Both the position numbers and the translations under genes were made by a program. A model generated the notes under the pieces. It saw only the letters and a list, made by a program, of their open reading frames with translations, did no database searches and was not told the DNA's origin. Source: Streptomyces thermolilacinus SPC6 (lineage in GTDB: Bacteria > Actinomycetota > Actinomycetes > Streptomycetales > Streptomycetaceae). From it: DNA of 64,000 nucleotides. This document shows, piece by piece, positions 1 through 28,466 of the stretch (position 1 is its first letter; the number at the start of each line of letters is the position of its first letter). The stretch covers positions 4,355,001-4,419,000 of the forward strand of contig NZ_ASHX02000001.1 in NCBI RefSeq assembly GCF_000478605.2. The letters are read 5' to 3'.

Positions 1-41
1 TGCTTAGAAGGCACCTGCTCTATCCACTGAGCTACGGGGGC
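1..41 (-). tRNA. tRNA-Arg (anticodon TCT), 3' part cut off by the window edge
   Basis: Read on the minus strand from position 41, the sequence starts with a seven-base acceptor strand GCCCCCG, then TA, the D-arm start GCTC, and an anticodon loop CTTCTAA, which places the anticodon TCT. The variable loop, T arm and acceptor 3' strand lie outside the window. It decodes AGA, a rare codon in such GC-rich genomes. It is over 6 kb from the integrated element and is not its attachment site. Confidence 0.85.
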
Positions 42-351
42 CGGTGGTGTGTGGCCTGGTGGCCGCTGGAGCCCCGGAGGGTGGTCCGTGACCTTGCCGG
101 GGTCAAGGATAGGGCTCCGGTCACCTTGGCCCGGTCGCTTCACCTGCGTGGCACGATGTGGAGGTTCGGTGAAGCGAACCCGATAATCGCAGGCAGGTGC
201 GATTCCCGCAGCGCTTTTCGCGCCTCACGGCTCGGGTGTTGTGCACTCGTTATGCCTGCGCCCCACTCATCCCCTCTGTCCCCGTGTGCGACCGGCGCGC
301 AGAGAGGCCCATACGCTTCAAAAAGATGCTGAAATTGGGCATTCTTCACAT
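42..351. other. Intergenic region, no gene recognised
   Basis: This 310-base stretch separates the tRNA from the first GTPase. It must hold the divergent promoters of both, but no convincing -35/-10 pair or ribosome binding site stands out. An in-frame GTG at 241 could add 37 residues to the next protein, but that extension is low-complexity and does not look coding. Confidence 0.5.
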
Positions 352-1944
352 GTGGTGACCTTGGACGTACGGCCTCAGCTTCTCGACGCACTCTCCGCCC
401 TGCGCGACCGTGTCGCCGCTGTGCGTCTCCCACTGCCCATTCCGGGGGCTCCCCGGGCGCGGCAGACGCGGGCGGAGCTGCTGGCCCAGCTCGACGACTA
501 CCTGGTCCCCCGACTGCGCGACCCCGAAGCCCCGCTCCTCGCCGTCGTCGGCGGATCGACCGGCGCGGGCAAGTCCACCCTCGTCAACTCCCTTGTAGGG
601 CGCCCCGTCAGCGAAGCAGGCGTCCTGCGGCCCACCACCCGCGTCCCCGTCCTCGTCTGCCACCCGGACGACGAGCACTGGTTCTCCGGCACCCGCGTCC
701 TGCCCCGCTTCACCCGCGTCTGGGGCGCCCCCGGCGAGGACGGCGACGACGAGCCGGAAGGCCGCGCCCTGCGCCTGGAGACCGCCGAAACGCTCCCCCG
801 CGGCGTCGCCCTCCTCGACGCGCCCGACATCGACTCCCTCCTCGTCGGCAGCCGCGAACTGGCCGCCGAGCTCATCTGCGCCGCCGACATCTGGGTGATG
901 GTCACCACCGCGTCCCGCTACGCCGACGCCGTCCCCTGGCACCTCCTCCGCACGGCCAAGGAGTACGACGCCACGCTCGTCACCGTCCTCGACCGCGTCC
1001 CGCACCAGGTGATCGGCGAGGTCTCCCGCCAGTACGAGGCGCTCCTCGTCCGCGCCGGCCTCGGTGCCGTACCCCGCTTCACCATCCCCGAGCTGCCCGA
1101 GTCCGCGGGCGGCGGCAGCGGCCTGCTGCCCGACACCGCCGTCGCCTCCCTCCGCGCCTGGCTCGCCCACCGCGCCCAGGACCCCGCGGCCCGGCAGCAG
1201 ACCGCCGGCCGCACCGCCAACGGCGTCATCGACTCACTGCGCGTCCGCATGCCCGAGCTCGCCGGAGCCGTCGCCGCCCAGTGCGCCGCCGCCCTGCGGC
1301 TCACCGGAGCCGTCGAGGCCGCGTACGAGGCGGAGGGCGAGCGGGTGCGGCACGAACTGCTGCGCGGCGCCGTCCTCTCCGGCGACGCCCGCGCCCGCTG
1401 GCGCGCCCACCCCCACGACAGCACCTCCGCCGAACTGCTCGACGCCATCGCCGAGTCCTTCGGCGCCCTCCTCCACTGCGCCGTCGCCGCCGCCGACGAG
1501 CGGCTGCGGGAGGCGTGGCGCCACGAACCCGCCGCAGGGGCGCTCGGCCCCGCCCCCGTCGGGCGCGACCGGGAGGCGTGCGAGCGGGTCGGCATGGCGG
1601 TACGCCGCTGGCGCCGCGTCCTGGAGGAGTTGGCCGAGGACGAGGTACGGCGTACCGAACGCACCCCCGTACCCGACGCCGACACCGTCGCCGCACTGCT
1701 CGCCGCCACCCTCCTGGGCGGTCGCCGCGCGCGCGGGGCGGGGGAGCAGCTCGCCGAGCTGATCGGCGCCCAGGGCACCCTGCGCCTGCGCGACAAGGGC
1801 GCCGAACTGATCGACACGTACATCGACCGCGTCCTCAAGGAGGAACGCGACCGGCGCCTGGCGCCCATCGACGCGCTGGGCGTCACCCCGGAGCCGCAAG
1901 CCGAGCTCATCGCCGCACTGTCCGTACTGCAGAAGGAGAGGTGA
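352..1944 (+). CDS. Dynamin-like / YfjP-type GTPase, first of a tandem pair
   Basis: A GTP-binding protein of about 530 residues. The P-loop [10 protein letters not shown] lies near residue 66 and a DAPDID segment occupies the position of the G3 motif. The rest is long, Ala/Arg-rich and mainly helical, as in dynamin-like or septation-associated GTPases. No signal peptide or clear membrane helix is visible. The GTG at 352 (or the in-frame GTG at 355) is preferred because the recognisable protein begins [19 protein letters not shown]; neither has a strong Shine-Dalgarno. It is followed after six bases by a second GTPase, so the two are probably co-transcribed and may form a heterotypic pair. 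The specific role is unknown; a membrane-remodelling or division-linked function is inference from the family. Confidence 0.82.
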
Positions 1945-1950
1945 CGGCGG

Positions 1951-3801
1951 GTGAGCGCCGTGGAGCAGAAGTGGGACGACGGGCTGATCGCCCGCCGGAC
2001 CGCCGCCGGGGACACGCCGCTGCGCGCGGGCACCGCCGACGACCGCGAGGGCGGCGCGTCCGGGACGTACGGCAGTGGGTCCGGGTCCGGGTCAGGTGGC
2101 TCAGGGCCGTACGGCGCCGGCGGCTCGGGACCGTACGACGGCGGGCCCGGTGACGGGAGCGGCGGGGCCGTGCCGCCCCGCGACGAACCCCCCGGCGGCG
2201 CCCACGCCGCCGCCCTCAAGGTCCGCCTCGACGCCCTGCGGGACCTCCTGGGGCTGTCCGCGACCCGCCTCGACCCTCCCGTCATCGCCGAGGCGAGCCG
2301 CGTACTGGACGAGGCCGCCGCCCGGCAGCGGCTCTCCTCACGGCACACCGTCGTCGCCATCGCGGGCGCCACGGGAAGCGGCAAATCGACACTGATCAAC
2401 GCACTCGCCGGGGTGCCCGTCTCCGAGACCGGCCTCAGACGCCCCACCACCGCCGCGCCCATCGCCTGCACCTGGTCCGAGGGCGCCGCCGGGCTCCTGG
2501 ACCGGCTCGGCATCCCCGGCCGGCTGCGCCGCAGACCCCTCGCGGGCGGCGACGGCGACGAGGCGCTGCGCGGGCTCGTCCTCGTGGACCTGCCCGACCA
2601 CGACTCGGCGCTCACCGCCCACCGCGACCAGGTCGACCGCGTCCTCGGCCTGGTGGACGCCGTCATCTGGGTCGTGGACCCGGAGAAGTACGCCGACGCC
2701 GCCCTCCACGAGCGGTACCTGCGGCCGCTGGCCGGGCACGCCGAGATCACCTTCGTCGTCCTCAACCAGATCGACCGCCTCCCCGGCGACGCAGCCCACC
2801 AGGTCCTCGACGACCTGCGCCGCCTCCTCGACGACGACGGCGTGGCCCTCGGCGAACACGGCGAACCGGGCGCCACCGTCCTCGCCCTGTCCGCCCTGAC
2901 CGGCGAGGGCGTCCCCGAACTGCGCGAACTGCTCGGCACGTTCGTCCAGGGCCACCAGGCCGCGACCCGTCGCCTGTCCGCCGACGTCGACGCGGCCGCC
3001 AGCCGGCTGCGCCCCGTCTACGTGGGGGAGGGGCGCCCGGGGCTCGGCGAGCGGTCCCGGGAGGACTTCACCGCCCGGCTCGCCGTCGCGGTCGGCGCCG
3101 CCGCCGCGGGCGAGGCCGCCGAGCGCGAGTGGCGGCGCAACGCCGGACGCGCCTGCGGCACCCCGTGGCTGCGGCTGTGGCGCTGGTACGAGCGGCTGCG
3201 CACCCCCGGCGGCGGTGGCGGCGAGCCTGCGGGGACGCCCCCGCCGGAGGAGGAGCCGACGGCCCGGCAGCGCGTCGAGCACGCCGTACGGGTCGTCGCC
3301 GAGGAGGCCGCGCGGGGGCTGCCCGCCCCGTGGGCGCAGGCGGTGCGGGAGGCGGCGGCGCGCGGCGCGCGGGGCCTGCCGGAGGCGCTTGACGAACTGG
3401 CGGCGGGAGCCCGTGACCCGAAGCCGGGCGGGAAGCCGCCGCGCCCCGCCTGGTGGCCGGTCGCCGTGCTGGTCCAGGCCTCCATGACGCTGCTCCAGGT
3501 GTTCGGCGCGCTGTGGCTGGTGGGGCAGATCGTGGGCGTACTGGAGCCGGGGCTGATGCCGCCGGTGCTGGTGATGCTCGCCGGGATCGTGGGCGGGCCG
3601 CTCGTGGAGTGGGCGTGCGTGGCGGCGGCCCGTGGGCCCGCGCGCCGGTACGGGCGGGAGACGGAGCGGCGCTTGCGCGAGGCGGCGGCGGGCTGCGGGC
3701 GGGCCATGGTCCTGGACCCGATCGCGACGGAGCTGATGCGGTACCGGGAGGTTCGGGAGCAGTACGCGACGGTGTCGGGCGGCAGGGTCCCGACCGGGTG
3801 A
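1951..3801 (+). CDS. Membrane-anchored YfjP-type GTPase, second of the tandem pair
   Basis: A 616-residue GTPase with a low-complexity Gly/Ser/Pro N-terminus (about residues 30-85), a P-loop AGATGSGKST near residue 136, a DLPDHDS segment as G3 and a NQID segment as the NKxD-like G4. Near the C-terminus two hydrophobic stretches (around VAVLVQASMTLLQVFGALWLVG and the following GLMPPVLVMLAGIVGGPLV) should form a membrane hairpin. The first protein of the pair has no such hairpin, so this one likely anchors the complex. It starts with GTG six bases after the upstream stop. The function is inferred from fold only. Confidence 0.82.
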   Translation: MSAVEQKWDDGLIARRTAAGDTPLRAGTADDREGGASGTYGSGSGSGSGGSGPYGAGGSGPYDGGPGDGSGGAVPPRDEPPGGAHAAALKVRLDALRDLLGLSATRLDPPVIAEASRVLDEAAARQRLSSRHTVVAIAGATGSGKSTLINALAGVPVSETGLRRPTTAAPIACTWSEGAAGLLDRLGIPGRLRRRPLAGGDGDEALRGLVLVDLPDHDSALTAHRDQVDRVLGLVDAVIWVVDPEKYADAALHERYLRPLAGHAEITFVVLNQIDRLPGDAAHQVLDDLRRLLDDDGVALGEHGEPGATVLALSALTGEGVPELRELLGTFVQGHQAATRRLSADVDAAASRLRPVYVGEGRPGLGERSREDFTARLAVAVGAAAAGEAAEREWRRNAGRACGTPWLRLWRWYERLRTPGGGGGEPAGTPPPEEEPTARQRVEHAVRVVAEEAARGLPAPWAQAVREAAARGARGLPEALDELAAGARDPKPGGKPPRPAWWPVAVLVQASMTLLQVFGALWLVGQIVGVLEPGLMPPVLVMLAGIVGGPLVEWACVAAARGPARRYGRETERRLREAAAGCGRAMVLDPIATELMRYREVREQYATVSGGRVPTG

Positions 3802-21838: not shown

Positions 21839-22840
21839 ATGGGTGTGGTGCGAGGGCAGGACCCGTTCGCCGAGGACGCCGCCGAGGCGCGGCGCAGGCT
21901 GGTCGCCGCGCTCGACGCCGAGGGGTGCCTGCCCGACCCGACCTGGCGGGCGGCGTTCGCCGAGGTGCCCCGCCACCTGTTCGTCCCCGTCTACCACGTC
22001 GGCGCCTTCGGCGGGTACGAGCGGCTGTCGCGCGACGACCCCGACCCCCTGGACCGGCTGCGCTGGCTGGAGGGCGCCTACGAGGACCGGCCGCTGGGCA
22101 CCCTGCTGCGCGACGACGACCTCCTGTCGTCCGCGAGCCAGCCGTCCCTCATGGCCGACATGCTGCACGCCCTCGACGTACGCGACGGCGACACGGTGCT
22201 GGAGATCGGCGCGGGCTCCGGGTACAACGCGGCGCTCCTCTCCCACCGTCTGGGCGACTCCCGCGTCACGACCGTCGATCTCGACACGGACATCACCGAC
22301 GCCGCCCGCGCCCACCTCCACGAAGCCGGGTACCACCCGGCCGTCGTCACCGGCGACGGCGCCCTCGGCTGCCCGGGCCGGGCGCCCTTCGACCGGATCA
22401 TCGCCACCTGCGCCATGCCGTCCGTGCCCGCGGCCTGGCTCGGCCAGTGCCGACCGGACGCGATCGTGGTCACCCCGCTGTCCACGGGGATCGTGCGGCT
22501 GCGCGTCGAGGACGCCGGACACGCGGAGGGCCGCTTCCTGCACACGTCCGCGTACTTCGTCCCGGTGCGCGGCGCCCTCCCCGCCGCGCCCGAGCCGCGT
22601 ACGGGCGGGCTGCCCCGGCGGGCGCTGGACAGCGACCTGTTCCGGTTCCTGCTGACCCTGGCGTCGGAGAGCCTCGACCCGTACGAGGCGTACGCCCTGT
22701 GGCGGCGCGAGGGCCGCCCGGACCGCGAACGGTACGGCGTGACCGTCCGCGGAGGGCGGCAGTGGGCGTGGCTGGACGACCCCGGGGGCCCCTACAGCTG
22801 GGCCCTCGGGGGACCGGCGCGTTCTCCGGCCGGTGCTTAG
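21839..22840 (+). CDS. PCMT-like SAM-dependent methyltransferase
   Basis: A 333-residue protein-L-isoaspartate O-methyltransferase relative. SAM motif I is VLEIGAGSGYNAALLSHR (about residue 120), preceded by SSASQPSLMADMLHALDV, the PCMT substrate-loop context. FDRIIATCAM is motif post-II and the N-terminus has the PRHLFVP hallmark. It may repair damaged aspartate or act on another acceptor, since actinobacterial members often methylate lanthipeptide or other targets. The stop codon TAG is exactly where the IS630-type transposon begins; the C-terminus ends SPAGA and seems intact. Confidence 0.87.
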   Translation: MGVVRGQDPFAEDAAEARRRLVAALDAEGCLPDPTWRAAFAEVPRHLFVPVYHVGAFGGYERLSRDDPDPLDRLRWLEGAYEDRPLGTLLRDDDLLSSASQPSLMADMLHALDVRDGDTVLEIGAGSGYNAALLSHRLGDSRVTTVDLDTDITDAARAHLHEAGYHPAVVTGDGALGCPGRAPFDRIIATCAMPSVPAAWLGQCRPDAIVVTPLSTGIVRLRVEDAGHAEGRFLHTSAYFVPVRGALPAAPEPRTGGLPRRALDSDLFRFLLTLASESLDPYEAYALWRREGRPDRERYGVTVRGGRQWAWLDDPGGPYSWALGGPARSPAGA

Positions 22841-22870
22841 TGGTCGGCTCCAGGAGTCCTTCGAGGGTTG
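22840..22870 (+). repeat. Left terminal inverted repeat
   Basis: 31 bases starting GTGGTCGGCTCCAGGAGTCC. It matches the reverse complement of 26687-26717 except at positions 13 and 15. Confidence 0.9.
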
Positions 22871-23169
22871 ACTCCGGAGTCGATCGTGGGCGCCGCTCAA
22901 GTGCCGAGGTGATGGCGATCGGTGATCTGGAAGCGGTTCGTCTCGAGTAAGGCCCGCGATCAAAGGGGGGAGAGCGTTGTTCCGCTGGTCGGGGGTGGCG
23001 TAGAGGCGGTCGTACTCGCGGGCGGCGTGGAAGCAGCAGGCCCTGCCGCTGACCTGCGGCTCCTGTTGTTCCGTCAGTTCCCATGCGAAGCCAGTCGATC
23101 ATGAGTGAATGCGGCGCGTCGCGGTGCTCGGAGTGCTATTGCCGCGCACGCTCTCTGCTCTCGATGTGG
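22871..23169. other. Non-coding left arm of the transposon with a possible gene remnant
   Basis: No intact gene. On the minus strand a frame from about 23095 down to 22880 reads like coding sequence (HAAREYDRLYATPDQRNN), but lacks a start and continues into the inverted repeat. It may be the end of a decayed gene picked up by the transposon. Confidence 0.3.
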
Positions 23170-23189
23170 CGCAGGTCACATCGACTCCA

Positions 23190-23217
23190 TGTCACGAACG
23201 GAAGGGCAGCTTGCGTC
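23190..23217 (+). promoter_or_regulatory. Candidate ECF41-dependent promoter
   Basis: TGTCACG (23190-23196), 17-base spacer, CGTC (23214-23217). Published ECF41 promoters share TGTCACA at -35 and CGTC at -10. A second GGTCACA lies at 23174-23180. It is 53 bases ahead of the oxidoreductase start, so the sigma factor would drive its own operon. Confidence 0.6.
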
Positions 23218-23269
23218 TGGTGGTCGTCCGCACAGCGGGAACGACCGACACGAAAGAGACAGCAGAGCG

Positions 23270-24463
23270 ATGAACGCGACAGCAACGCAGCAGCACAAGG
23301 TCCTGGTCCTGGGCGCCGGCTACGCCGGGCTCTCCGCCGCGATCCAGCTCGCGGCCCGCACCAGGAAACGCGGAAACCTGCGAGTGACGCTGGTCAACCC
23401 CTACGACACCTTCACCGAGCGGCTCCGACTGCACATGACCGCCACCGGTCAGGAGACGGCCGAGATGAACATCCCGGGGCTGCTGGACGGCACCGGCACC
23501 GGCTTCGTCCGTGGCTGGGTCACCGCCGTGGACGCCGAGACGAAGACCGTCCGGATCGACGACGACCGGGTCCTGCGCTACGACACCCTGGTCTACGGCC
23601 TGGGCAGCATCGCGAACACCGTCGCCGTCCCCGGCGTGGACAACCACGCCTACACCCTTGACAGCCCGGAGGACGCCGCCATCCTCGCCGACCGGCTGAC
23701 CCGGCTCGACGGTGGGACCGTCGTGGTCGGCGGCAGCGGCCTCACCGGCGTCGAGGCCGCCGCGGAGATCGCCGAGCGGCACCCGGAGCTCGAGGTGGTG
23801 CTGCTGGGCCGGCAGGAGCCGGGCGCGAGCATGCACCCGAAGGCCAAGGCCTACATGGACGCGGCGCTCGCCCGGCTTGGCGTGCGGGTGCGCAGCGGCG
23901 TCGAGGTGGCCAAGGTGCTGCCGGGCAGTGTCGAGCTCGCGGACGGCTCCAGCATCCCGGCGGGCGCGGTGCTGTGGACCAGCGGCACCCGTGTCTCGCC
24001 GCTGGCGGCCGCCGCGGGCCTGACCGTCGACGAGCGCGGCCGTGTGGTCACCGACAGCGCGCTGCGCTCGGTCTCCCACCCGGACGTCTATGCCGTGGGC
24101 GATGCGGCGGCGATCCGCCAGGGCTACGGCGTGATGCACGGGACCTGTCAGGGGGGTATGCCCACCGGCGTGCACGCGGCCCTCTCGATCCTGCGGGTGC
24201 TGGCCGGCAAGGAGCCCAAGCCCTTCCGTTTCGGCTATTACCACACACCTGTCAGTCTGGGCCGGAACGACGCCGTCGTGCAGTTCACCCACCCCGACGA
24301 CAGCCCGCGCCGGATCGTGCTGACCGGCAAGCGAGCCGCAAAGTACAAGGAGACGGTCACCGCCGCGCCGTGGCCGACCTTCGCCCGCATGAAGAAGATG
24401 CCCGCCTCGGGCGCGTTCTGGCCGCACGGCGGCCGCTACACCCGGATTCGGAGCGCCAAGTGA
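23270..24463 (+). CDS. FAD/NAD(P)-dependent oxidoreductase (NDH-2-like), ECF41 partner
   Basis: A 397-residue flavoprotein. The FAD-binding Rossmann motif is VLVLGAGYAGLSAAIQLA near the N-terminus, the NAD(P) motif is VVVGGSGLTGVEAAAEIAE near residue 150, and the second FAD contact is DVYAVGDAAA near residue 280. There is no redox-active CxxC, so it is closer to type II NADH dehydrogenases than to thioredoxin reductases. ECF41 sigma genes are typically next to oxidoreductase, epimerase or carboxymuconolactone-decarboxylase genes, and this is such a pair. The ATG at 23270 is favoured over an upstream GTG because the promoter lies between them. Its stop overlaps the sigma start (GTGA). It is a passenger in the transposon. 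Confidence 0.9.
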   Translation: MNATATQQHKVLVLGAGYAGLSAAIQLAARTRKRGNLRVTLVNPYDTFTERLRLHMTATGQETAEMNIPGLLDGTGTGFVRGWVTAVDAETKTVRIDDDRVLRYDTLVYGLGSIANTVAVPGVDNHAYTLDSPEDAAILADRLTRLDGGTVVVGGSGLTGVEAAAEIAERHPELEVVLLGRQEPGASMHPKAKAYMDAALARLGVRVRSGVEVAKVLPGSVELADGSSIPAGAVLWTSGTRVSPLAAAAGLTVDERGRVVTDSALRSVSHPDVYAVGDAAAIRQGYGVMHGTCQGGMPTGVHAALSILRVLAGKEPKPFRFGYYHTPVSLGRNDAVVQFTHPDDSPRRIVLTGKRAAKYKETVTAAPWPTFARMKKMPASGAFWPHGGRYTRIRSAK

Positions 24464-25377
24464 CCCAGCCGCAGCAGGCCGGCCCCGACCAGCTTGCCTT
24501 CCAGCAGTACCGCACCCTGCTCTTCTCCGTCGCCTACCGCATCCTCGGCACCGCCGCCGATGCCGAGGACGTGGTCCAGGATGCCTGGCTCAAGTGGTCG
24601 GCGGCCGACCGTTCCCACGTCGCCGACCCCAAGGCCTACCTGACCCGGATCGTCTCCAACCTGGCGATGGAGCGTCTTCGTTCGACCCGCCACCAGCGCG
24701 AGACCTACGTCGGGCCATGGCTCCCCGAGCCGATCCTCACCGGCCCGGACGCAGCTGACGGCGTCGCCACGACGGACTCGGTCTCCATGGCCCTGCTGGT
24801 TGTGCTGGAGACGCTGAGTCCCCTGGAGCGCGCGGTCTTCGTGCTGAAGGAGGTCTTCGCCTTCAGCTATGCGGAGATCGCGGAGGCGGTGGAACGCTCG
24901 GAGGCGGCGGTCCGGCAGGCCGCGCACCGCGCCCGCGAGCACGTCCAGGCCCGCCGGCCCCGTTTCACCGCGGACCGCGCCCGCCAACGCGACGTCACCG
25001 AGCGCTTCTTCGCGGCGACGGCGGGTGGGGACATCAACACCCTCATGGAGCTGCTCTCCCCGGACGTGACCCTGTGGACCGATGGCGGCGGCAAGGTCCG
25101 CCAGGCCCTCAAGCCGGTCGTCGGCCTGGAAACCGTGGCCCGTTGGTTCGCCGCGCTCGGCACCGCGACCTACCAGGGCATCGAGCCCGGGCAGATGCGG
25201 GCAGAGCTCACCTGGATCAACGGCGGCCCGGGCGTGGTCTTCCACGGCCCTGACCGCGTGGTCGCCACGCTGACCTTCGACTTCGATCCGGAAGGCCGCA
25301 TCTCGACCATCCACAACGTGGCCAACCCCGACAAGCTCCACGCAGTCGCCGACGGAACTCGGCACGAACTCTCCTGA
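24460..25377 (+). CDS. ECF41-family sigma factor with SnoaL-like regulatory tail
   Basis: A 305-residue RNA polymerase sigma factor. Region 2 spans about residues 12-78 (DAEDVVQDAWLKW), region 4 about 112-165 (LSPLERAVFVLKEVFAFSYAEIAE). The ECF41 hallmarks are all present: WLPEP in the linker at 87-91, DGGGK at 208-212 and NPDKL at 289-293 in the C-terminal SnoaL-like extension that regulates activity in place of an anti-sigma factor. The GTG at 24460 overlaps the oxidoreductase stop by four bases. It lies inside a transposon, so its regulon may be only its own operon or may reach host genes. Confidence 0.93.
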   Translation: MTQPQQAGPDQLAFQQYRTLLFSVAYRILGTAADAEDVVQDAWLKWSAADRSHVADPKAYLTRIVSNLAMERLRSTRHQRETYVGPWLPEPILTGPDAADGVATTDSVSMALLVVLETLSPLERAVFVLKEVFAFSYAEIAEAVERSEAAVRQAAHRAREHVQARRPRFTADRARQRDVTERFFAATAGGDINTLMELLSPDVTLWTDGGGKVRQALKPVVGLETVARWFAALGTATYQGIEPGQMRAELTWINGGPGVVFHGPDRVVATLTFDFDPEGRISTIHNVANPDKLHAVADGTRHELS

Positions 25378-25389
25378 ACCGCCTGATCG

Positions 25390-26685
25390 TTGTCGACGCC
25401 CTCCGGAATCACTGTGAGCGCCCGGGCCAGCTGCCCCAGCACAGCCCGGCCCCCAGTGGAAGCGGATGCGGCAGGCTGCGGCCGTCCTGATCCACTTCTT
25501 CTGAACGGCTCGCCTGCCTTGCCTGTTGCTGCCGCGCGCCCGATAGTCCTGACCGCCGCCGAGCGGCACCGGTTGAAGAAGGCGGCCCGGGGCCATAAGA
25601 CCGGTTACCGGGCCAGGCTGCGGGCGCAGATCGTCCTCCGGGCGGCTCGGGGTAGGTCCAACGCGCGGATCGCCGTTGAGGTGGGAGTGCACGTGGACAC
25701 CGTGCGCACGTGGCGGGGCCGGATCGCCGAGCTGGGCCTGCCGGGCCTGGCCGACCGCCAGCGCCCGGGGCGGCCCGCCACTTTCACCGCGTTGCAAGCT
25801 GCGCAGGTCAAGGCGCTGGCCTGCCAGCTTCCGGCCGAGGCCGGCGCGCCGCTGTCGCGCTGGTCGTGCCCGGAGCTGGCCCGCGAGGCCGTCGAGCGTG
25901 GCATCGCGCCCTTCCCGTCGACGTCCACCGTGCGCCGCTGGCTCGGCCAGGACGCGCTCAAGCCCTGGCAGCACCGTTCGTGGATCTTCATCACCGACCC
26001 GGACTTCCGGCCCAAGGCCGAGCGCGTGCTGGACCTGTATGCCCGCATTTGGGACGGCATCCCGCTCGGCGCGGACGAGTACGTGATCAGCGCGGACGAG
26101 AAGACCTCCATCCAGGCCCGCTGTCGCTGCCATCCCGCCCTGGCACCAGGCCAGGCGAGAGCGATGCGGGTGAATCACACCTACGGGCGCGGCGGCGCGC
26201 TGGCCTACCTGGCCGCCTACGACGTCCGCCAGGCCACAGTGTTCGGCTACTGCGAGCCGACCACCGGCATAGCCCCGTTCATGGCCCTGGTCGTCCAGGT
26301 GATGCGCCAGGAGCCCTGCGCGGGCGCGAAGCGCGTGTTTCGGGTCGTCGACAACGGCTCCTCCCACCGCGGCAACGCCGCAGCGGACCGCCTTGTGGCC
26401 GCGTTCCCGAACGCCGTGCTGGTCCACACTCCTGTGCTTGCCTCCTGGTTGAACCAGGTGGAGATCTTCTTCTCCATCGTGCAGCGCGAAGTCGTGGCGC
26501 CCAACGACTCCCCCGACCTTGCCCAGGTCGGGGACCGGCTCCGAGCCTTCGAAGACCGCTACAACGCCACGGCACAGCCGTTCCAGTGGAAGTTCGCCAC
26601 CTCCGACCTGGACGATCTGCTGGCCAGGCTCGACCGGCATACCGCCGATCACCCAGAGGAATCCTCCGTCGCGCTGGCAGCATGA
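25390..26685 (+). CDS. IS630-family DDE transposase
   Basis: A transposase of up to 431 residues. The N-terminal helix-turn-helix is RSNARIAVEVGVHVDTVRTWRGRI (helix-turn-helix then DRQRPGRPATF linker). The DDE residues are in ISADEKTSIQAR, RVVDNGSSH and HTPVLASWLNQVEIFFSI. The start is uncertain: TTG 25390, GTG 25414 or GTG 25456 are all possible, and recognisable family sequence begins at RPIVLTAAERHRLKKAARG (about 25540). It is 12 bases after the sigma gene, so it may be expressed from the same ECF41 promoter. The stop is just two bases from the right inverted repeat. Confidence 0.93.
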   Translation: MSTPSGITVSARASCPSTARPPVEADAAGCGRPDPLLLNGSPALPVAAARPIVLTAAERHRLKKAARGHKTGYRARLRAQIVLRAARGRSNARIAVEVGVHVDTVRTWRGRIAELGLPGLADRQRPGRPATFTALQAAQVKALACQLPAEAGAPLSRWSCPELAREAVERGIAPFPSTSTVRRWLGQDALKPWQHRSWIFITDPDFRPKAERVLDLYARIWDGIPLGADEYVISADEKTSIQARCRCHPALAPGQARAMRVNHTYGRGGALAYLAAYDVRQATVFGYCEPTTGIAPFMALVVQVMRQEPCAGAKRVFRVVDNGSSHRGNAAADRLVAAFPNAVLVHTPVLASWLNQVEIFFSIVQREVVAPNDSPDLAQVGDRLRAFEDRYNATAQPFQWKFATSDLDDLLARLDRHTADHPEESSVALAA

Positions 26686-26686
26686 C

Positions 26687-26717
26687 CAACCCTCGAAGGA
26701 CTTCCGGAGCCGACCAC
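26687..26717 (-). repeat. Right terminal inverted repeat
   Basis: Reverse complement starts GTGGTCGGCTCCGGAAGTCC and matches the left repeat at 29 of 31 positions. The next base begins the stop codon of the FHA gene. Confidence 0.9.
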
Positions 26718-28466
26718 TTAGCCGCGTACGACGGTGAGCGTCGTCCAGGCGCCCACGTGCACCCGGTCGCCGTCCTGGAGCGGTACCGGCACGTACGGCT
26801 GGATCGGCTCCTCGGCGCCGTTCATGGTCGTGCCGTTGGTGGAGCTCTGGTCCATCACGGCCCAGGAGCCGTCGGGCTGCCGCACGAACATGGCGTGCTG
26901 GTGCGACACCCCCGGGTCCTCCGGCGGCACCGACAGGTCGATGTCCGGCGACTCGCCCGTCGACTGCCGTCGACGGCCGACCGTCACCTGCTGCCCGGTC
27001 AGCTCCACGCGGCGCTCCGGGGAGTACGCGGGCAGGTTGAGGCTCGCCGCCTCGGGGCCGCTGCGCCGCATCATGGCCATGAAGTAGTCCCGGTCGGGAC
27101 GCACGACGACGGCCCACCCGGTGGGCGCGGCCGGCGCCTGCGGGGGCTGCGCCTGTCCCGTCGGGGCGTGCGGCCGGCCGGGCTGGTGGGGCTGGCCGGG
27201 CTGCGGCTGGCCGGTGGGCGGCTGCGGGTGGCCCTGCGGGGGCTGCGGCGCCTGGGGTGGCTGCGCCTGCGGAGGCCGAGGGGCCTGCGGGGGCTGGGGC
27301 GCGCGCGGTGCTTGCGGCTGGGCGTGCGGGGCCTGGGCCTGTGCCGGTGGGTGCGGCCGACTGTGCGGGGCACCCTGCGGGGGGTGTGCCTGGGACGGCG
27401 GCGGCAGCACCCAGTCGTCACCACCGGGCGCGCCGGGCTGCCGGAATGCCTGCGGCGGCGCCTGGCCGGGCGCGGGTTGGGCGGGGGCGGACTGAGCGGG
27501 GGCGGACTGGACGGGCGCACCGGCACCGGGTCCGGGCTGGTCACCGGGCCGGCTGCCGGACGGTCCCTGGCCGGGCGGTACGCCGTGGCCGGGCGCGCCA
27601 CCTGGGCCGCCCGGTGCCTGGCTCGGTGCGTTGCCGGGTGCGAACGGGCCGTCCGGGCGGGGGCCCGTGGGGTTCTGACCGGTCGGGGCGCCCGCGCCGG
27701 GACCGAACGGCGGGTTGCCCGGGTGAGGTCCCGGGGCGCCGGGTCCAGGAGCGGGGGCACCGTTCGGGCCGCCCGGGCGGCCGCCGAAGGAGGGAGCGCC
27801 CGGCCCGGCGTTCTGGCCGGGGACGGGGCCCTGGCCGGGGTGCGGGGGCTGGCCCGGGTTCGGAGCCTGGGCCTGGTTCGGGGGCTGGCCCGGGTTCGGG
27901 GGCTGCGGGCGGTTCGGGCCCGGGCCGCCGAACGGTGACGAGTCCTGGCCCGGAGCCGACGGGAAGCCCCGGTCGCCCTGCGGGCCCTGCGGACCGGACC
28001 GCGGCCCCTGCGGACCGGACTGCGTGCCCGGCTCAGGCGGCAGGGGCTCCGCCGGGCGGTTCACCTGCGACGGGCGGGAGCCCTGGTACTCGTACGGCTC
28101 CGGCGGGCGCGGCGCGGACGTGAAACCGGGCGGCAGGTTCAGCCCGCCGCCCGGCTTGGACGGGGGCGGCGGGGAGATCGGCGTGTACGAGGTGGCCGTG
28201 TTCGTCAGGAAGTTCCACCGGCACTCCTCGCAGTACGGCGCCATCGCCTCGCGCGGCGTACGGCACTGCGGGCACAGCTCCGTCTGCCGCGTGGCGTCCG
28301 GGTCACCGCCCGCGGGGCCGGACTGGCCGTACCCGGGAGCGGGCGGGGGCGGCGGGGGAGGAGGCGGCACGGCGCCCGCGGGCGCGCCCGCCCCGGCCAT
28401 GCGGTGGCCGCAGACCTCGCACCAGTCGTCGGCGCCCGACTGGTGTCCGTTCGGGCAGGTCGGCAT
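26718..28466 (-). CDS. FHA-domain protein with two zinc ribbons and a long Pro/Gly/Gln linker
   Basis: A 582-residue cytoplasmic phosphothreonine-binding protein. The first zinc ribbon is residues 4-19 (CPNGH, CEVC), the second about 64-79 (CPQC, CEEC). A disordered Pro/Gly/Gln/Ala-rich linker of about 350 residues follows. A C-terminal FHA domain occupies about 485-582, with GRR (phosphopeptide contact), SHQHA and SSTNGT. FHA proteins are the usual effectors of Ser/Thr kinases; in mycobacteria the FHA protein GarA is the PknG substrate. Here it is the last gene of the PknG-like operon and so the likely reader. The TAA stop is shared with the transposon target site. Confidence 0.88.
   Translation of the reverse strand: MPTCPNGHQSGADDWCEVCGHRMAGAGAPAGAVPPPPPPPPPAPGYGQSGPAGGDPDATRQTELCPQCRTPREAMAPYCEECRWNFLTNTATSYTPISPPPPSKPGGGLNLPPGFTSAPRPPEPYEYQGSRPSQVNRPAEPLPPEPGTQSGPQGPRSGPQGPQGDRGFPSAPGQDSSPFGGPGPNRPQPPNPGQPPNQAQAPNPGQPPHPGQGPVPGQNAGPGAPSFGGRPGGPNGAPAPGPGAPGPHPGNPPFGPGAGAPTGQNPTGPRPDGPFAPGNAPSQAPGGPGGAPGHGVPPGQGPSGSRPGDQPGPGAGAPVQSAPAQSAPAQPAPGQAPPQAFRQPGAPGGDDWVLPPPSQAHPPQGAPHSRPHPPAQAQAPHAQPQAPRAPQPPQAPRPPQAQPPQAPQPPQGHPQPPTGQPQPGQPHQPGRPHAPTGQAQPPQAPAAPTGWAVVVRPDRDYFMAMMRRSGPEAASLNLPAYSPERRVELTGQQVTVGRRRQSTGESPDIDLSVPPEDPGVSHQHAMFVRQPDGSWAVMDQSSTNGTTMNGAEEPIQPYVPVPLQDGDRVHVGAWTTLTVVRG

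Follow-up and report, generated by a model that had tools for sequence, protein, structure and literature searches.

A predicted IS630-like transposon with an oxidoreductase/ECF41 operon in Streptomyces thermolilacinus and its clade of elements with many different small gene modules

The window analyzed here, 64,000 bp of contig NZ_ASHX02000001.1 from Streptomyces thermolilacinus SPC6 (positions 4,355,001 to 4,419,000), contains a unit of 3,878 bp at 22840-26717, which is bounded by 31-bp inverted repeats matching at 29 of 31 positions. Inside these repeats the genes for an oxidoreductase, an extracytoplasmic function (ECF) sigma factor and an IS630-type transposase follow one another. As judged from the sequence, this is very probably an element of the transporter insertion sequence type, in which an IS630-like insertion sequence (IS) has captured an oxidoreductase/ECF41 operon and moves it as one unit. 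The larger finding is the clade to which it belongs, a streptomycete IS630-like transposon with many different small gene modules. The features of the unit are the following.

22837..22839: left copy of the target duplication, TTA of CTTAG (the empty site reads CTTAG)
22840..22870, plus strand: left terminal inverted repeat, 31 bp
22840..22908: left IS remnant; similarity to the simple 1.67-kb form stops approximately here (positions 1-75 of the model correspond to element 1-69)
23046..25428, plus strand: putatively captured DNA with approximate limits, the longest stretch in common with transposon-free oxidoreductase/ECF41 pairs
23190..23217, plus strand: ECF41-type promoter TGTCACG-N17-CGTC, 80 bp before the oxidoreductase start
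23270..24463, plus strand: pyridine-nucleotide (FAD) oxidoreductase, partner of the sigma factor (Pyr_redox_2, 134 bits)
24460..25377, plus strand: ECF41 sigma factor (SigJ model 338 bits, cut-off 271) with SnoaL-like C-terminal domain and WLPEP linker
25459..26717, plus strand: right IS part with a leader of approximately 60 bp, the transposase and the right end
25519..26685, plus strand: IS630-type transposase, 388 aa, likely TTG start (NF033545 151.2 bits, cut-off 100; Pfam DDE_3)
26687..26717, minus strand: right terminal inverted repeat, 31 bp
26718..26720: right copy of the target duplication, TTA

The longer arms of the unit (22835-22870 and 26687-26722) are 92% complementary and their 31-bp cores (22840-22870 and 26687-26717) differ at two positions. 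A search of the 6.45-Mb host genome with the consensus of both ends, allowing up to three mismatches, matched these two ends alone, and the reversed pattern used as a control matched nothing; the full element is present in one copy. The trinucleotide TTA directly abuts both ends and lies in the overlapping stop codons of two convergent host genes, which are both spared by the insertion.

21839..22840, plus strand: PCMT-like methyltransferase, host flank; its TAG stop takes in the first G of the element
26718..28466, minus strand: FHA-domain gene, host flank, convergent; its stop lies within the right TTA

Thus, both flanking genes retain intact stop codons, the left one being completed by the element itself. 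The same site was inspected in relatives of the host. When the methyltransferase was used as a query, 56 of 61 genomes matched, often weakly or over only part of the sequence, and the 29 best loci (L133-L161), namely the own one and 28 relatives, were used. In 27 of these 28 relatives the methyltransferase and FHA genes converge at a distance of -3 to 361 bp, which is too short for the element, so that these sites are empty; in the remaining one, L157, the FHA gene was not found in the stretch examined. The empty site of the closest relative locus, L134, reads CCTAGCCGCG, and the host site minus the element and one TTA reads CTTAGCCGCG. A first-pass annotation of this DNA had named the oxidoreductase and sigma genes at this spot without repeats or transposase as the contrary case, and none of the 27 relatives with a readable site displays it.

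The same arrangement was found in another streptomycete (L119 in genome G366), where it matches the unit at 88% over element 1-3759. Its flanks read CTTA followed by GTGG on the left and CCGACCAC followed by TTAG on the right, and neither the methyltransferase nor the FHA gene was found in 19.9 kb around the unit. This points to a separate site with its own TTA duplication. The L119 copy is decayed, since the 3' end of the transposase gene and most of the right repeat are gone and the transposase is split over two frames. Remains of the unit, worse damaged than L119, are present in L120 (G106) and L129 (G024), which brings the genomes with the unit or its remains to four, and the copy in the window is the sole intact ECF41 unit among the copies found. 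Taken together, the TTA duplication, the empty site and the second copy elsewhere argue that the three genes and two repeats are one transposition unit, as the first-pass annotation had proposed. The IS630-type transposon with an ECF41 sigma factor and an oxidoreductase is confirmed by the repeats, the gene models, the TTA and the empty site, and the recurrence of the same three genes with their repeats, for which a search had been suggested, is provided by the decayed L119 at its different site.

ECF41 sigma factors are recognized by a WLPEP linker motif and an extension at the C-terminus, and their promoters follow the consensus TGTCAC(A/G)-N16/17-CGTC, as described in PMC3426412. The predicted sigma factor of the unit contains PWLPEP in its translation and SnoaL_2 at residues 181-282, and its gene overlaps the oxidoreductase gene by 4 bp. 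The promoter at 23190 has a 17-nt spacer, and its -35 element ends in G, not A. The promoter pattern is present in 8 of the 12 pair loci compared, including the own one and L119, and the other four (L120, L126, L131, L132) lack an exact match. By all marks that can be checked in a sequence, this is an ECF41 sigma factor, and the complete ECF41 pair of the first-pass annotation stands, with the oxidoreductase directly upstream, the WLPEP motif, the C-terminal extension and the ECF41 promoter.

The limits of the captured DNA were taken from matches to transposon-free pairs, which cover element 207-2542 in L122 and 208-2589 in L124. Since the shared DNA extends from approximately 23046 to 25428 and IS similarity returns from approximately 25459, the operon probably entered together with its own promoter. 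A minus-strand open frame at 22842-23102 lies in the stretch between the left IS remnant and this promoter. The 87 aa tested from it have no family in Pfam; the stretch is shared with L119 at 76% and is possibly debris of captured DNA.

The longest open reading frame (ORF) of the transposase opens at TTG 25390. Its relatives begin at the position of TTG 25519, and the start is therefore taken there, which leaves 141 bp between the sigma gene and the transposase. Full-length alignment to seven relatives (77-84% identity) shows no stop codon within the transposase. D193, D278 and E315 (numbering of the 388-aa form) are invariant in all eight aligned sequences, and we take them to be the acidic catalytic residues of IS630 transposases.

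It had further been suggested that the sigma factor also controls the transposase, in which case transposition would follow the ECF41 signal. Both genes lie on one strand with the short distance given above, and no terminator-like site is predicted between them, which is a weak test. In three laden relatives (L030, L011 and L031), i.e. elements with cargo, the leader is nearly lost, with 31, 46 and 58 bp, respectively, between the end of the cargo gene and the transposase, so that read-through seems likely there. Against this stands the lack of an ECF41 motif before the transposase, the sole motif of the window being that at 23190. Furthermore, the transposase of the window still has about 60 bp of IS leader in front of it, and the nearest cargo gene is directed away from the transposase in five laden relatives (L020, L023, L042, L043, L072). 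A sigma-70-type promoter was not predicted in 22700-26900. With no such motif before the transposase and the leader retained, we regard sigma control of transposition as doubtful.

The transposase search of genome contigs yielded 215 relatives, the best 80 of which were kept, and hence the share of laden elements reported here is no census. An element was called complete if both repeats were present at no more than seven mismatches, which holds for 52 of the 80 loci; the other 28, without one or both ends at this threshold, were left unscored. The complete elements comprise 17 of 1.54-1.70 kb (simple form), two with nested DNA (L054 and L079) and 33 laden ones of 2.1-5.1 kb. Cargo always lies between the left repeat and the transposase, which is followed by the right repeat. 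The earlier view that passengers are unusual in IS630 units does not hold in this clade, given that 33 of the 52 complete relatives carry some.

Eight of the 17 simple elements are copies in Streptomyces sp. AC1-42W. The simple form is present there in at least ten copies (L032-L039, L054, L079), two of them with nested DNA, which suggests that it has been active recently. Nine loci of this genome (L033-L039, L054 and L079) were excluded from alignments, junction table and tree and retained in the duplication counts, with L054 and L079 not classed as laden.

By hand grouping, the 34 laden elements including that of the window represent 27 modules, 14 of them with a regulator gene; this count omits L021, which carries another transposase gene, as well as L050 and L056, which display no clear ORF. 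Four modules are common to two species each (L014/L017, L015/L026, L041/L049 and L061/L062). From these elements, 40 ORFs selected by the GC content at third codon positions (GC3) were scanned against Pfam and seven ORFs against NCBIfam; four of the 40 remained without a family and one is a small IS gene. Cargo with regulators includes an aldo/keto reductase with DUF5937/ArsR, GFO/IDH with AraC, a cupin with TetR, MerR, PadR, an epimerase with TetR, a glyoxalase with TetR, and a four-gene set of TetR, SDR, alcohol dehydrogenase and hydrolase. An aldo/keto reductase also adjoins a LuxR-like protein, whose LuxR match is just under the cut-off. Other cargo encodes a beta-lactamase fold, a nitrilase, lectin repeats, an amidase, GNAT, PEP mutase, DUF3224, MurJ, an LD-carboxypeptidase, SDR, and MFS with an esterase.

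Elements of this kind are also found on plasmids, for which six records (L163-L168) were fetched out of 30 with a transposase relative. Two are laden with matched flanks, L163 with a regulator, an NTF2-like and a MoaF-like gene and L166 with TetR and a ketopantoate-reductase-like gene. L165 is laden with MerR and a second gene between unmatched flanks, L164 is a simple form with matched flanks, L167 has poor ends, between which lie an NTF2-like and an IS4 gene, and in L168 no ends were found.

Perfect CTWA/TWAG flank pairs (W being A or T) are present in 26 of 33 laden elements, namely that of the window and 32 loci, L072 being excluded from the duplication counts for want of a left flank. Random re-pairing of the ends yielded a mean of 13.2 and a maximum of 23 in 5000 rounds. 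For all 52 elements with flanks, 39 perfect pairs compare with a mean of 20.1 and a maximum of 31 in 2000 rounds. The flanks of laden elements thus match far above re-pairing, which argues that laden units are not chance pairs of ends. As exceptions, L057 and L079 have well-formed but different flanks, and 11 elements have one irregular flank. In L021, one element of the family directly neighbors another, and their ends are separated by no more than the three bases TAA (L021:123-127). The orientation of cargo was considered as evidence and discarded: by hand count, the adjacent cargo gene is co-directed with the transposase in 25 of the 30 laden elements scored (out of 34, without L021, L050, L056 and L077), but 12 of these 25 are forced by divergent pairs, and without such pairs 13 co-directed ones compare with 5.

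Insertion sequences of the IS630 family target CTAG and duplicate TA. Elements of the clade centered on Streptomycetaceae lie in CTWAG, and W is identical at the two ends, which implies an odd number of duplicated bases (1, 3 or 5 as judged from the sequence, TWA being the simplest). As the TA rule is not followed, the element is termed IS630-like. Ten loci beyond the midpoint root of the transposase tree, from which transposase matches spanning less than 930 bases were left off, form an outgroup. Eight of these ten measure 1.59-1.61 kb from repeat to repeat (L082 and L084 by inner repeats only), L089 reaches the contig end with CTAG at its left end, and for L080 no repeat-to-repeat length was obtained. 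CTAG is present at both ends in L076, L081, L083 and L088, whereas L068 displays CTTA and TTAG and L086 has unmatched flanks. CTAG in the outgroup versus CTWAG in the Streptomycetaceae clade is an apparent change of the target by one base pair. Targeting of stop codons was rejected as a rule of the family, since, of 39 insertions with a perfect duplication, no more than 4 were located at a stop codon that closes a coding-like frame (by a rough GC3 criterion), against a background of 0 of 24 other CTWAG sites in the flanks and 2 of 6 in the window.

The simple form offers a view on how cargo was taken up. Its left half contains a conserved gene of approximately 111 aa facing away from the transposase.

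L022:5646-5978, minus strand: gene of approximately 111 aa in simple copies, with equivalents in L012, L013, L019, L032, L045, L057 and L076

The gene has no NCBIfam family, and the longer ORF of a relative has no Pfam family. It is shortened or absent in most laden copies and thus seems dispensable. In laden copies the left piece terminates at model positions between 31 and 394 and the right piece starts between 61 and 488, and junctions so scattered suggest that capture was unspecific and took place many times independently. When elements are labeled as simple or laden, the transposase tree (65 rows) requires 7 changes, compared to a mean of 8.2 after shuffling, and 81 of 500 shuffles were as low; the two forms do not cluster, which indicates that the cargo state changes often. 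Cargo as a self-mobile element was also considered and rejected: in L029 and L077 the two halves share 7 and 4 model positions, respectively, but no duplicated letters are present at the junctions.

The same movement could have a different history, in which the operon once lay between two IS copies and the transposase of the left copy was then lost. To the left of the cargo, the IS is reduced here to about 69 bp, which is compatible with both histories, and related copies do adjoin each other, as in L021. Nevertheless, the left and right parts sum to approximately one IS left half in L020 (1-394 and 418-622) and L029 (1-314 and 308-622), and this fits the entry of cargo into a single IS. Such a collapsed composite is considered unlikely. 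It is very unlikely that a simple IS630 copy merely came to lie beside an ECF41 pair, with the upstream repeat left by another copy: ECF41 pairs without a transposon and solitary decayed ends (L125) do exist, yet the TTA duplication, the relatives' empty site, the recurrence of the arrangement elsewhere between a TTA duplication of its own and the low rate of matches among re-paired ends across the family all speak against it.

Some observations weigh against a captured operon moved as one unit. Seven of the 33 laden elements lack a perfect duplication, and the likeness of the repeats within a laden element (0.896) compared to that between elements (0.867) lends no real support. The capture junctions were set where local alignments stop, so their positions are approximate. 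Finally, the other three copies of the ECF41 unit are decayed, so that the laden form is only presumed to be active. With these points included, an IS630-like element with a captured operon still appears to be the best description of the unit.

The first-pass annotation had also seen in this unit a route by which ECF41 modules spread. This is true in part, as four genomes carry the unit or its remains and a further locus, L125 in G032, retains a decayed left end of the IS family. This end, preceded by CTAA, lies 1149 bp before the pair (locus position ~7535) and has 7 mismatches, compared to 8-10 for the best other positions among 0.46 million, the own end of L119 aside; it counts against the pairs being wholly free of transposon history. 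On the other hand, only L119, L120 and L129 among 14 further pair or remnant loci have such a transposase, and in the other 11 none was found within the 5.6-19 kb examined. On plasmids, no record with 80% of the element was found, and among 212 records, the twelve with the best matches agree with the pair region alone, at 74.7-78.5%. Transposon-free pairs reach 96% identity to the pair of the window. Those of L121-L128 are 86-96% identical to it in almost wholly different neighborhoods, which suggests that something besides this transposon also moves the pairs. Nucleotide matches above 700 bp outside the pair were absent among the pair loci apart from one (L124/L129), and five translated flank matches were obtained at E <= 1e-25. 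A donor locus was sought and none can be named, because the transposon-free pairs share almost no neighbors. Since ECF41 pairs mostly sit without a transposon, the transposon is one vehicle for them and not the usual one.

Mechanistically, the left interior of an IS630-like element, which in the simple form holds the gene of approximately 111 aa, would have been replaced by a chromosomal oxidoreductase/ECF41 operon with its promoter, presumably through unspecific recombination at varying points. The transposase near the right end would then move everything between the repeats, and insertion at CTWAG would duplicate the center, most simply TWA. The copy in the window may still be active, and, as in the ECF41 systems studied, the sigma factor would act on the promoter at 23190 and in this way drive its own operon. 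As a broader and quite speculative proposal, this one IS630-like clade centered on Streptomycetaceae might serve as a general shuttle for small gene modules. Tolerance for cargo might have arisen with or after the change from CTAG to CTWAG, followed by repeated capture, often of a regulator with an enzyme; some copies might lose the leader, whereupon the captured promoter and its signal (here ECF41) might time the jumps of the whole unit.

Small modules of a regulator and an enzyme in unrelated neighborhoods are common in bacteria, and their means of movement is seldom known. An element with one transposase that repeatedly contains such modules, on chromosomes as well as linear plasmids, represents a concrete vehicle. 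Furthermore, it makes testable whether a captured regulator can gain control over the transposase that carries it. Genes adjoining an "IS630 transposase" in Streptomyces should also not be assumed to be host genes.

In the open PMC literature, no paper naming both "ECF41" and "transposase" was found. An IS630 clade with variable cargo, or any IS630 example of a transporter IS, was likewise not found there, including the accessible parts of PMC9330008, PMC11092175, PMC7031236 and PMC7188733, a search of the open literature without ISfinder; the novelty of the clade is thus provisional. Three known systems can be compared. The oxidoreductase partner, the WLPEP linker, the C-terminal extension and the promoter are shared with ECF41/COE systems, whose COE partner is a carboxymuconolactone decarboxylase, an oxidoreductase or an epimerase (PMC3426412); in contrast to these, the pair of the window lies inside a transposon. 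With the IS630 family the element shares a transposase above the NCBI IS630 cut-off, inverted repeats and outgroup relatives of approximately 1.6 kb, several of them in CTAG. Unlike that family, the clade uses CTWAG with an odd-length duplication instead of TA, and most complete copies outside the multi-copy genome are laden. A transporter IS (tIS), a term used in PMC9330008, is an IS derivative with passenger genes; a single transposase, two ends and passengers without an evident role in transposition are the traits shared with it. By its sequence the element of the window belongs here, with its passengers between the IS ends as one predicted unit, and what sets its clade apart from tIS is the many unrelated modules, each with its own junctions.

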